A stretch of 5,338 bases of DNA from an uncultured Planctomycetaceae bacterium (GTDB lineage Bacteria; Planctomycetota; Planctomycetia; Pirellulales; Lacipirellulaceae): contig CALMBE010000800.1 in assembly GCA_937860165.1 (NCBI GenBank), positions 1 to 5,338 of the forward strand. The letters are read 5' to 3'. Of this stretch, positions 1,318-4,433 are shown piece by piece. Position 1 is the first letter of the stretch, and the number at the start of each line of letters is the position of its first letter. A program made the translations under genes and the position numbers. Below the pieces are notes generated by a model. That model was not told the DNA's origin. It made no database searches and worked only from the letters and a program-made list of their open reading frames with translations.

Positions 1318-1333
1318 GTGACCTACTGGTCAC
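1318..1333. other. Small hairpin overlapping the sulfotransferase stop codon
   Basis: GTGACC and GGTCAC form a perfect 6-bp stem around a 4-base TACT loop, and the minus-strand stop codon (1332-1330) lies within it. No T-run follows on the minus strand, so it is a poor intrinsic terminator. A stem this short could also be chance. Confidence 0.3.
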
Positions 1334-2439
1334 GGTATCAAGCAGAGATCAGCAAATCGCTCGGCGACGGCGGCGGTTTCTTCGGCGATGATTGTCTCTT
1401 CGCGTTCCGAAAAATTCGGCGTGTAATACTTGGGAAGTGCAATTTGTGATGCGAATTCATCGAGTGGACTAGCCGGTTCCAATTCGCAGTGCGCGAGTAG
1501 TGTACTCAAGATTTCGTGGGGATTCTCGCACAGATTTTCGTAGCGAACGATTTTCGTCGCGGCGGCTAACTCGGAATCGTTCGCCAACTGATCCGCCAGC
1601 CAACCATAAACACTCGCCCAGTAGCGGGCCGTGCCACGGACTTCTTCCCCACGGTTCCACAGGTCGCACACTTCTTGGGCCACTTGATCGCCGATACAGA
1701 TCGGGCGGCGATCCAAGCCGAACTCAAAGTGTCCCACCCGCTGCATGTGGGCCAAGGCCCGTGGGTAGGCTGTTTCTCCCGCACAGAAGAGTCGGTGCTG
1801 TTTAGTCAGCGAGGCAATGTGTTCCCGTGGATTTCGTACGACGACCACAAACCGCGCATCAGGCAAAAACTTCTGTAAGTAAGCCATGCGTGTCAGATTG
1901 TAATTCCCCTTGGCCAAGTAACGTGGCCGAGCCCGCACGAGTAGCAACTTGCGAATATGATCGCGGTAGAATTTTTCAAAGGCCGGGTTATCTATCGTGC
2001 GGTCCAAGATGTTCGAGCGATCCGAGCGATGCAGGTCTGCGAAGAACGCCATCCACAGGGATTCTTCCATCGCCTCGGGGCTGTCGAGCGATACCTGTAA
2101 CCGGTCGCCGTGGGCTCGTTCTTGCACAGGTGCCGGTTTCGGATTCTGCCCCCGATTCCACCAAGCTGGGATAAACTGCCCGGGAAAGTCTCGATACTGG
2201 TGTGTGGCCAAGTCTGGGTGCCGCGACAAAAGCTCCAAGACGATGGTGGTCCCTGCGCGGGCGATTCCCGAGACATAGATGGGGCGATCGATTGCGAGCC
2301 CCTGGAGTTGGTCACGCAGAGTGGCCGATTCGAGATTTCCGAGCCGTACCCACCAATTGGAGAATTTCTCAACCAATCCCGACAAGAGATGCACCCCTAG
2401 CGGGACTTGAAAGGCATCGAGCTGGCAGGGAGTGTTCAT
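1330..2439 (-). CDS. Sulfotransferase family protein (PAPS-type, Sulfotransfer_3-like)
   Basis: This is probably a cytoplasmic enzyme that moves a sulfuryl group from PAPS to a hydroxyl or amine of an unknown acceptor. The 369-residue protein has the 5'-phosphosulfate loop PIYVSGIARAGTTIVLELL at 53-71, with GIARAGTT (58-65) in place of the common GxPRSGTT. It also has a 3'-phosphate-binding segment, ARFVVVVRNPREHIAS at 195-210, where Arg202 and Ser210 are the likely ligands. A KGNYNLTRM segment (177-185) precedes it, as in the Sulfotransfer_3 group. ATG 2439 is chosen because it overlaps the upstream stop as ATGA, which implies translational coupling. There is no Shine-Dalgarno. The frame stays open to 2565, but that extension would lie inside the upstream gene and has no family character. 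It is the last gene of a four-gene operon. The family is fairly sure; the substrate is unknown. Confidence 0.85.
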   Translation of the reverse strand: MNTPCQLDAFQVPLGVHLLSGLVEKFSNWWVRLGNLESATLRDQLQGLAIDRPIYVSGIARAGTTIVLELLSRHPDLATHQYRDFPGQFIPAWWNRGQNPKPAPVQERAHGDRLQVSLDSPEAMEESLWMAFFADLHRSDRSNILDRTIDNPAFEKFYRDHIRKLLLVRARPRYLAKGNYNLTRMAYLQKFLPDARFVVVVRNPREHIASLTKQHRLFCAGETAYPRALAHMQRVGHFEFGLDRRPICIGDQVAQEVCDLWNRGEEVRGTARYWASVYGWLADQLANDSELAAATKIVRYENLCENPHEILSTLLAHCELEPASPLDEFASQIALPKYYTPNFSEREETIIAEETAAVAERFADLCLIP

Positions 2440-2801
2440 GCGATCTTGTGGAGATACTTGGTGGTGAGTGCCGCGACAACGACCGCCGAAAAGTATGAAA
2501 TCAAACTGTGTTCGACCAACGGCAGTGCCGCCAGTACGGGAATCCCAGAAATTAGCGAGGGCCACAACACCAGCCCCAGGCGTTGGAAGGTGAGTCGCAA
2601 ATTCTCGCGGGTAAGAGCCATGGCCCCACTGAAGTCACCCTCAAAGGTGGCCAATTCGCCCTGCAAAGCTTCAATCCGGAGTTTCAACGATTGCAGTTTC
2701 ACTTGCGGCGAAAACCGCCCGTACACAAGCATGGACACTACGCCGGAAACGCAGCCCAACAGGAGGGGAAACCAGAAAGCATCACCCGCGAAAAACGACA
2801 T
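2436..2801 (-). CDS. Small three-helix membrane protein, possible EMC3/DUF106-like (Oxa1 superfamily)
   Basis: This 121-residue protein has hydrophobic segments at about 9-28, 75-96 and 99-115. Between the first two lies a charged helical stretch likely to form a coiled coil (about 32-57, including KLQSLKLRIEALQGEL). The order TM, coiled coil, TM, TM, with RENLRL and then WPSLISGIPVL before and in the second helix, resembles archaeal DUF106 and eukaryotic EMC3, relatives of YidC/Oxa1 insertases. It is shorter than those families, and the resemblance is by layout only. ATG 2801 is used because it begins just before the first helix. It lies 4 bases after the stop of the preceding gene and has AGGAG at 2818-2814. 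An in-frame ATG at 2837 would overlap the preceding gene by about 30 bases. The stop overlaps the sulfotransferase start by 4 bases, so the two are probably co-translated. The gene is real with good confidence; the function is unproven. Confidence 0.75.
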   Translation of the reverse strand: MSFFAGDAFWFPLLLGCVSGVVSMLVYGRFSPQVKLQSLKLRIEALQGELATFEGDFSGAMALTRENLRLTFQRLGLVLWPSLISGIPVLAALPLVEHSLISYFSAVVVAALTTKYLHKIA

Positions 2802-2805
2802 CGAA

Positions 2806-2997
2806 CTATTGCACTCCTGGCGTCGAGGGTTTGCCATTCCGCAATCTTTTCCACAGCGCACGTAGTGGCCAGAAAGCGATCATCCCCACCGCTCCCACAA
2901 TGGCAACGACTACACCCACGAGCGGCCCCAAAAGGGCGACTCCACCTCCAGGGCCGATATAACCTAAGAGAGATAAACCACAAATTGAACTGATCAT
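2806..2997 (-). CDS. 63-residue membrane protein with GYIGPGGG motif
   Basis: This is a short protein with a single hydrophobic span at about 17-45, preceded by GYIGPGGG (12-19) and followed by a basic tail (FWPLRALWKRLRNGK, 42-56). The pattern of Y-I-G/D-P-G near the N-terminus, one membrane span, then W-P-x-R and a basic end recurs in small bacterial membrane proteins of unknown function, often beside phosphodiesterase or sulfotransferase-like genes (recalled, not searched). The basic tail suggests the C-terminus is cytoplasmic. It is supported as a real gene by an ATG with GGGAG at 3009-3005 seven bases upstream, by its place 17 bases after the arylsulfotransferase-like gene, and by the 4-base gap to the next gene. 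I cannot assign a biochemical role; a subunit or anchor for a neighbour is plausible. Confidence 0.7.
   Translation of the reverse strand: MISSICGLSLLGYIGPGGGVALLGPLVGVVVAIVGAVGMIAFWPLRALWKRLRNGKPSTPGVQ
2814..2818 (-). promoter_or_regulatory. Ribosome binding site, AGGAG
   Basis: AGGAG lies 12 bases before ATG 2801 on the minus strand, inside the end of the 63-residue gene. The spacing is long, but it supports this start over the in-frame ATG at 2837, which would overlap the upstream gene. Confidence 0.45.
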
Positions 2998-3004
2998 GTT
3001 ATGA

Positions 3005-3009
3005 CTCCC
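3005..3009 (-). promoter_or_regulatory. Ribosome binding site, GGGAG
   Basis: GGGAG sits seven bases before ATG 2997 in the short gap after the arylsulfotransferase-like gene. It is the best-placed Shine-Dalgarno in the window and is a main argument that the 63-residue protein is made. Confidence 0.6.
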
Positions 3010-3014
3010 GAAAA

Positions 3015-4433
3015 CTATTTACCCACCGCGGCAACTTCACCCGACAAGGGTGCTTGCCGCGTTTTTAACTTTAACTGTTCCACAAAGGGAAGTTCTTCCC
3101 TCGTAAAGCGGCGTGCCCCGCAGACTAACGGGATCAAGTCGCCCTGCTCCCCTCCCCGCACGGGATGCACGTACTCCCACACGGTTTGTCCAGCGCGATT
3201 GACTTCGAGAATTCGACCTCGATCTCCCTCGGTTATCAGCACATTGCCATTGTCGAGCGACTGCTGGCAACTACGGGTATCGCTGCGGAGATGGTGTGCG
3301 CCATTTCCAGTGTAGTACCATTCCTTTCGCCACTTGCGGGGATCAAATTCCACGACCCCCGAACCATGCTCGACCCCGTGAGCAAGGAAATTATTGAAGA
3401 TCATGATGTTGCCGTTGGGCAGTGGATCCGGATCGTGGGGATGTTCCCAGGCCCCCGTAGTCGCCCACACAATCTTCTCCGATTCCGGGTTCACCACGGC
3501 TACTAGGTTCAGATTTCTCAAGCACACCATCAAATCGCCGGATTTCATTTCTGGATAATGCGCCGCAAAATCCGCGTCGACCACATGTACAGTGTTGTTG
3601 TGCGTGATGTCGCCATAGCGGTCCACATGGATCAACATCGGCCGATAGTACGGGGAAGCGACCAAGGCATCCAGCAGCGAAATGCGTTTCGTTTCCTTTC
3701 CCTCGGGGGAAAGAATCGCCACACAGTCCTCTACGAGCGGCAAGTCGGTGAGCGGGTTGAGCTCGGTATCTTTGCTCGTAAGTTGGCGGAGCTCATGCAC
3801 GAGCACGTAAATTCGCCCATCGTCGCCGATGCTCACATCGTGGTGTGCGTAGTCGTCGTAAGCCCAGAGCACGTTGCCTGCTAGATCGAGCTTGGCCAAA
3901 CCACATCCCGAGGGGGTATTGGCAATTGTCTCATAGAGGGCCAGCAAGTCCCCGTTGGGATACACGAGTCCCCGTCGCATCAATATGAATTGCTCAGGAA
4001 TCCACTGAGGTACATGCCGCGAATTTGGAAATACGTTCTTAAAAGGTGCCACCCAGCGATGAATTTCCTGGCCTTCTCGATCAACCAATGTTGCCGAACA
4101 TTGATCACCCGAGACAAAGCTGGTGTAGTCGCCATAACTCTCGGCGGGATTGTTTTCGACTAGCCCCTGCGGTTGACCCTCGGCTGGATACCACAGGTAT
4201 TTGGGCCACTGGCTGCTCATGATCCCTTGCTGTTCGCTCAACGAACAGAATGCCAACCAGGCATCCCGGACGGCATAAAACGGCGGCGATTGCTTGATGG
4301 CTGTCACCATCCCAAACAGAAACGCCAACAGGCCAATCCCCACGATTGGCAGCAACCTGCCAATCCAAGAGGCACCTTCCACACTTCGCGTGGGTGAAAC
4401 AGCCACTTGGCCAACCTGTAATTCTTCGCTCAT
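3015..4433 (-). CDS. Membrane-anchored arylsulfotransferase (ASST)-like beta-propeller protein
   Basis: Characterised ASST enzymes are periplasmic, PAPS-independent propellers that transfer sulfate between phenolic compounds through a histidine. This 472-residue protein has a polar N-terminus, one membrane helix at about 23-46 and then a long exported domain. That domain shows repeated propeller-type strands: YPNGDLLALYE at 158-168, GLAKLDLAGNVLWAYDDY near 178-195, HHDVSIGDDGRIYVLVHE at 197-214, VAVVNPESEKIVWATTG at 311-327, HPHDPDPLPNGNIMIFNN at 331-348, GVVEFDP near 359-365, and DNGNVLITEGDRGRILEVN at 394-412 followed by WEYVHP. Histidines at 197, 198, 278, 331, 333, 352, 356, 380 and 381 are active-site candidates; I cannot say which is catalytic. 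ATG 4433 gives a type II anchor. An upstream GTG at 4472 adds 13 residues and has a G-run only one base away, too close for a ribosome site. It is the first gene of the operon. The family assignment is good, but true sulfotransfer activity is uncertain. Confidence 0.8.
   Translation of the reverse strand: MSEELQVGQVAVSPTRSVEGASWIGRLLPIVGIGLLAFLFGMVTAIKQSPPFYAVRDAWLAFCSLSEQQGIMSSQWPKYLWYPAEGQPQGLVENNPAESYGDYTSFVSGDQCSATLVDREGQEIHRWVAPFKNVFPNSRHVPQWIPEQFILMRRGLVYPNGDLLALYETIANTPSGCGLAKLDLAGNVLWAYDDYAHHDVSIGDDGRIYVLVHELRQLTSKDTELNPLTDLPLVEDCVAILSPEGKETKRISLLDALVASPYYRPMLIHVDRYGDITHNNTVHVVDADFAAHYPEMKSGDLMVCLRNLNLVAVVNPESEKIVWATTGAWEHPHDPDPLPNGNIMIFNNFLAHGVEHGSGVVEFDPRKWRKEWYYTGNGAHHLRSDTRSCQQSLDNGNVLITEGDRGRILEVNRAGQTVWEYVHPVRGGEQGDLIPLVCGARRFTREELPFVEQLKLKTRQAPLSGEVAAVGK

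Follow-up and report, generated by a model that had tools for sequence, protein, structure and literature searches.

Why should a propeller resembling arylsulfate sulfotransferases (ASSTs) and a sulfotransferase of the 3'-phosphoadenosine-5'-phosphosulfate (PAPS) type be encoded side by side, with two small membrane proteins between them? This arrangement is found in a 5,338-nucleotide stretch of DNA from an uncultured Planctomycetaceae bacterium, here called the window, which is the entire contig CALMBE010000800.1 (C800) of a genome assembled in 828 contigs and 87% complete. That the four genes are a conserved unit, and to which families its parts belong, we regard as firm. As to what the unit does, our preferred reading, to which we give a probability of about 0.4, is that the genes form a conserved, self-contained module that relays sulfate across the cytoplasmic membrane in two steps.

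All four genes lie on the minus strand. The gene for the ASST-like propeller (4433-3015; 472 aa, defined by its open reading frame (ORF) and Pfam) is followed by that of a 63-aa membrane protein called here the YIGPG protein (2997-2806; an ORF with no Pfam family over cut-off), by that of a 121-aa EMC-like three-helix membrane protein (2801-2436; structure model and family profile) and by that of the PAPS-type sulfotransferase (2439-1330; 369 aa, ORF and Pfam). The first two genes are separated by 17 bases and the next two by 4, and the EMC-like and sulfotransferase genes overlap by ATGA at 2439-2436. This is the spacing that the original prediction, made from the letters of the window, had described, and the ORF coordinates bear it out. 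Since a promoter scan found 1 site where 2.6 were expected in shuffled sequences, it gives no verdict on separate promoters and speaks neither for nor against them. No RNA element was found with Rfam at gathering scores.

Is this order kept elsewhere? A search with the ASST as its sole query gave at least 378 confirmed relatives, of which the best 80 were kept as loci (some genomes contribute more than one) and scored with profiles of the four families. The full order of ASST, YIGPG, EMC-like protein and sulfotransferase on one strand is present at 23 of the 80 loci, in one case with the sulfotransferase truncated by the contig end (L027), and 6 more have a partial set, with one or two of the three partner genes. 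The 27 loci of highest similarity (L004-L030) include 20 with the full block, and three of the seven others (L021, L024 and L029) end less than 600 bases from the ASST. In the 22 full loci without a fusion of the EMC-like and sulfotransferase genes, the spacing between these two, with start codons chosen by rule, ranges from a 22-base overlap to a 41-base gap, and a 4-base overlap is seen in 8.

An ASST tree of 80 rows was built from 76 of the 80 loci (four were dropped for stops, unknown letters or short length) together with the window, L103, L133 and L134. All 27 full-operon rows fall on one side of a branch with 100/100 support. The 40 rows on the far side comprise 38 without the block, 2 with part of it and none with all of it, and 4 rows on the operon side have a partial block. 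A single clade of full-operon ASSTs was rejected: the label needs 10 changes on the tree (shuffled mean, 22.9). Full-operon rows belong to Planctomycetota, Pseudomonadota, Thermodesulfobacteriota and Candidatus Sumerlaeota, of which the last two contribute a single metagenome-assembled row apiece. Since the thermodesulfobacterial row (L022) sits beside a gammaproteobacterium on the tree, transfer or mis-binning is possible in its case. Conservation of the order across species, which the original prediction had left as a condition, is thus observed, and in four phyla.

Searching from the EMC-like end avoids the sampling bias of a collection started from the ASST. In the order of Phyllobacterium phragmitis (L012), the EMC-like profile matches 8 of 249 genomes, one of them the starting genome, and all 8 matches lie within the four-gene block; the ASST of L012, used as query in the same order, finds 8 of 248 genomes, identical to the EMC-like carriers. 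Such a coincidence would have a probability of 3e-15 if the genomes were independent, and their kinship raises the true figure. Occurrence is all-or-none in this bacterial order, and the two small proteins regularly accompany this ASST clade and its sulfotransferase, as had been suspected. A chance neighbourhood of four genes was rejected on the strength of these two coinciding sets and the 23 full loci.

Nearer the window, the ASST is found in 3 of the 43 genomes of its own family (E 1e-20). In its order (296 genomes), EMC-like matches at E <=1e-15 occur in four genomes, all with the full block (G000, G029, G485 and G006), and two weak matches stand in another gene setting (G452 and G032). 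Across the phylum, an ASST is detected at E 1e-40 in 23 of 392 genomes, and the stretches around it (about 1.5 kb on each side) contain the full block in G000, G333 and G122. Such patchiness is what one would expect if the unit is gained and lost in one piece. Some homolog of the ASST occurs in 35 of 72,556 plasmid records, with a best identity of 38.7%. Two other identities were tried and rejected, that of a defence system (PADLOC had 0 matches for the four proteins) and that of viral cargo (60 stretches fit a pattern and 0 were confirmed). Culturable carriers of the block are Parvibaculum indicum, Phyllobacterium phragmitis and Mesorhizobium.

What might the four proteins do? The propeller protein matches PF14269 (Arylsulfotran_2) with 79.1 bits against a cut-off of 27, and is barely over the cut-off of PF05935 (24.5 versus 24.2 bits); hydropathy gives it one N-terminal membrane anchor, at about residues 21-48. 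Its structure model has a mean predicted local distance difference test score (pLDDT) of 89.5 and a predicted template modelling score (pTM) of 0.85. The first two PDB matches of the model are the Cpz4 entries 9kf6 (E 3.7e-16) and 9kf4 (1.9e-15), with a TM-score to Cpz4 of 0.52, the best match outside Cpz4 having an E-value of 1.1e-9; a 44-row ASST profile reaches the same two entries at E 6e-13. H333 aligns with His436 of EcAST (AssT, 3ELQ) in a stretch with an i-Evalue of 0.11, and R387 stands at the position of EcAST Thr501. H278 and N280 show the H-x-N spacing of EcAST His356/Asn358, a motif that Cpz4 has at the aligned position, and R306 aligns with a Cpz4 arginine and is taken as the equivalent of EcAST Arg374; the assignment of these three residues rests on the motif and the Cpz4 alignment. 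All 25 operon rows retain H197, H198, H278, N280, R306 and H333, and 24 of them retain R387.

Propeller folds frequently act as binding modules, and the model also matches many PDB propellers that lack transferase activity, with E-values of 1e-9 and above. The window protein could on this account merely bind sulfated ligands for the neighbouring sulfotransferase, but the near-complete retention of the positions mapped from EcAST and Cpz4 makes that very improbable. By family profile, fold and active site the protein is an ASST, with a predicted transfer activity in which H333 would be the sulfo-acceptor and H198, H278, N280, R306 and R387 would belong to the active site. The propeller is predicted to face outward, and so to share the extracytoplasmic location of EcAST as well as its aligned sulfo-histidine and surrounding active-site residues; His436 is described there as the transiently sulfated residue (PMC13426309). 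The two differ in genetic company, since EcAST is described as encoded with the disulfide partners DsbL/DsbI, and the window ASST stands beside genes for a PAPS enzyme and two different membrane proteins. Three tandem ASST genes precede a single YIGPG, EMC-like and sulfotransferase set in L014 (929-5085), and two do so in L020 (8402-11155), as though a single donor side supplied several acceptors.

The sulfotransferase matches PF13469 (Sulfotransfer_3) with 64.4 bits (cut-off 27) and PF00685 with 30.6 bits (cut-off 22), and in NCBIfam has a sub-threshold match to NoeE only (27.7 bits versus 500). Residues G58, R61, G63 and T65, and R202 and S210, which we take to form the PAPS loops, show at least 93% conservation over 25 rows. 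Profile and conserved loops together identify a PAPS-dependent sulfotransferase, its activity being predicted, and hydropathy finds no membrane segment, so that a cytosolic location is predicted as well. PAPS production needs adenosine 5'-phosphosulfate (APS) kinase. Of the 24 operon genomes searched, 23 have this enzyme, that of the window included; the exception is G693. In two Okeania genomes, the sulfotransferase frames at L040:11745-13241 and L042:13863-15374 have an extra membrane-like N-terminus of about 150 residues that does not match the EMC-like family, and adjoin a YIGPG gene and several ASST genes.

A pairing of this kind has a precedent in caprazamycin biosynthesis, where a type III polyketide synthase (PKS) is the source of the carrier. 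In that pathway the PAPS enzyme Cpz8 is reported to make a phenolic sulfate that is the donor for Cpz4 (PMC4257720). The block is similar in that a PAPS sulfotransferase is linked to an ASST whose closest solved fold, among the matches listed, is Cpz4. It differs in its two conserved membrane proteins and membrane-anchored propeller, in its spread over four phyla and in having no linked PKS. For the carrier of the block we can offer a guess, a quinol-like lipid.

Neither the YIGPG nor the EMC-like protein of the window has a Pfam match over cut-off, nor do the other scanned members of both families. In an alignment of 31 YIGPG rows, Y13, G15, G17 and P44 are invariant. The single long hydrophobic stretch and the positive C-terminal tail, read from hydropathy and charge, suggest an N-out, C-in topology. 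In many proteobacterial rows the residues directly before the tyrosine look, by eye, like a signal peptide that closes with AFA or the like, so the mature protein may start at the motif. Searches of the open-licence PMC literature turned up no report of the four-gene set or the YIGPG motif, the one match listed for the motif concerning vaccine epitopes.

The EMC-like protein is modelled with three membrane helices (pLDDT 93.5). A 32-row profile of its family reaches archaeal MJ0480 at E 2.1e-11, with the next match at 0.65, and the match is retained with operon rows only (1.3e-7) or divergent rows only (5.7e-7). A 7-row planctomycete-only profile does not find MJ0480 and has PDB matches at chance level only, and the fold matches listed for the model include no archaeal YidC or EMC3 chain. 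The Pfam family EMC3_TMCO1 (PF01956) matches neither the window protein nor five relatives, and has 0 matches over cut-off in 20 related genomes. Judged by sequence, the three-helix protein is a member of the Oxa1/YidC superfamily, in its archaeal/EMC3 branch. The term EMC3-like, used in the original prediction, is therefore valid at the superfamily level, given the MJ0480 match, and fails at that of the Pfam family; the protein is filed as a superfamily relative and not as a member of PF01956. As modelled, it would have in common with archaeal YidC/DUF106 (MJ0480) and its eukaryotic kin EMC3, TMCO1 and GET1 the three membrane helices and a helical hairpin that separates helices 1 and 2, and a small membrane protein is likewise encoded alongside; it differs from them in being bacterial and tied to sulfotransferases. 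The protein is short in the window and its close kin, and proteobacterial forms have about 110 extra residues between the second and third membrane helices.

With the sulfotransferase predicted to be cytosolic and the anchored ASST predicted to face outward, the membrane would stand in the way of a sulfated intermediate. For bringing it across, the two conserved membrane proteins are candidates, because insertases of the Oxa1 superfamily are reported to scramble lipids through a hydrophilic groove (PMC10491306). It is from a Cpz8/Cpz4-like enzyme pair predicted to lie on opposite sides, together with two candidate crossing proteins, that we propose the relay. The soluble sulfotransferase would move sulfate from PAPS in the cytosol onto a small, membrane-soluble, phenol-like carrier. 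The Oxa1-type three-helix protein and its dedicated partner YIGPG would hold the enzyme at the membrane and offer a groove for passage of the charged carrier. The anchored outer propeller would then take the sulfate onto H333 and hand it on, outside the cytoplasm, to an acceptor that may be a lipid or a polysaccharide. The sidedness of the relay, the physical complex, the carrier, the crossing and the acceptor are the parts that we infer. We also infer, in keeping with the original prediction, that the unit modifies the envelope.

Could the two small proteins have a humbler task? They may be a dedicated insertase for the anchor of the propeller, with the two sulfotransferases acting on separate substrates and sharing regulation only. 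The three-helix protein does belong to a superfamily described as protein insertases (PMC8887752), the propeller does carry an anchor, and ASST, YIGPG and EMC-like proteins co-vary best among themselves (rho 0.67-0.78 over 25 rows, without correction for species kinship). Yet ASSTs of the same clade that stand alone manage without YIGPG and EMC-like genes, and in L020, from Sumerlaeota, the EMC-like gene forms one open frame with the sulfotransferase and not with the propeller. The YIGPG/EMC-like genes, moreover, also adjoin phosphodiesterases. In five genomes (G676, G677, G702, G697 and G701) a phosphodiesterase-like frame some 700-750 codons long has a YIGPG stretch at its N-terminus, PF01663 being confirmed for two of the five; this sister system is represented by L130:1789-3870 and by L131, L132, L136 and L137. 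Such frames often have an EMC-like gene of about 275 aa in their vicinity, and a second phosphodiesterase occurs, in varying sets, close to them or to further EMC-like genes of that size. A short protein with a sulfotransferase-type loop accompanies the system in L128, L130 and L131 (PF13469 confirmed in L130 only). An ASST adjoins it in L035/L137 and L073/L136, and L128-L132 have no ASST match in the fetched stretch. Since the pair thus serves more than one kind of enzyme, a platform role fits better than the folding of one propeller, and we consider the dedicated insertase somewhat unlikely.

The same fusions bear on another account, in which the small proteins act as a mere scaffold, passively tethering the sulfotransferase to the membrane for direct sulfation of a lipid, and the propeller moves or removes sulfate on the far side after ordinary flipping. 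The L020 fusion, the use of YIGPG as a membrane stretch at the head of the five phosphodiesterases and the lack of a membrane segment in the sulfotransferase itself are all consistent with a tether. A tether, however, needs neither a conserved Oxa1-type core nor a second protein with an invariant motif. This is a point of argument, and with it we judge the scaffold quite unlikely. A fusion of YIGPG with the EMC-like protein was also seen, in P0007; as a search with P0007 did not find a second one, it may be due to a lost stop codon or to an error in sequencing.

The relay can be extended to a broader proposal, in which a recruited archaeal/EMC3-type Oxa1 protein and YIGPG form a dedicated passage, the carrier being charged from PAPS inside and discharged outside through a histidine-sulfating propeller, and in which the YIGPG/Oxa1 pair, found with phosphodiesterase-fold enzymes in the sister system, is a general platform that moves activated groups across bilayers. 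In this full form we consider it unlikely.

Several observations weigh against the relay. None of the other three genes accompanies the ASST, at the distances used, at 51 of the 80 loci, which mostly carry more distant ASSTs; the outcome that the original prediction had named as refuting, that the four families rarely occur together, was not seen within the clade. Of the 51, 39 have at least 2.5 kb of downstream sequence, and one (L042, Okeania) has YIGPG and sulfotransferase genes further downstream. Within the operon side of the tree itself, 9 of 40 rows are ASSTs without the block, some of them on short contigs. Okeania, Ferrimonas and one planctomycete have YIGPG and the sulfotransferase with the EMC-like gene undetected, and the co-variation of the sulfotransferase with the other three proteins is lower (rho 0.40-0.49, same rows and scope) than theirs among themselves. 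The likeness to EcAST is weak in sequence (3elq, E 0.0088 with the 44-row profile), EcAST is absent among the 50 fold matches listed for the propeller model, and the alignment of H198 with EcAST His252 lies in a stretch scoring 1 bit. Nor is a carrier or acceptor gene linked to the block: within 10 kb no fifth gene recurs broadly. With the four families and frames read against them excluded, the most widespread additional cluster, identified by eye as a short-chain-dehydrogenase-like gene, occurs at 6 loci, all alphaproteobacterial, and the remaining clusters have 3 loci each. Finally, a type III PKS is present in 7 of the 24 operon genomes and was not found in that of the window (87% complete). 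Its product was rejected as a general carrier on that count, and for the same reason the block is not filed as a member of the caprazamycin type, though it may work alike.

The block is flanked in the window by two genes on the plus strand, one for a PF02348 cytidylyltransferase (144-983; Pfam), presumably of the CMP-KDO (cytidine monophosphate 3-deoxy-D-manno-octulosonate) type, and one for an RmlD-type protein that runs off the contig end (4613-5338; Pfam). Neither gene has a homolog in six related operon-region loci, which represent five contigs. Downstream of the sulfotransferase gene lies a palindrome resembling repetitive extragenic palindromes, CATTCCCGCGCAGGCGGGAATCCAG, at 1142-1166, of which the genome holds 66 copies with at most 1 mismatch (35 + 31) and 0 read backwards. 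It is flanked by an inverted repeat (1029-1057 / 1236-1256) of 17-19 bases that are 89-94% complementary, with arms about 180-190 bases apart. Repeat and palindrome together look like a small non-coding mobile or repeat element.

The chemistry of ASSTs is already known, and PMC13426309 states that the natural acceptors of most of these enzymes are not identified. What the block adds is a conserved unit in which two membrane proteins would couple an ASST with a PAPS enzyme. If the relay is true, it is the sulfotransferase that makes the donor, in the cytosol, and the block would inform the donor side of ASST chemistry too. Bacteria, for their part, gain a relative of the archaeal/EMC3-type Oxa1 proteins whose genes travel with small-molecule enzymes.

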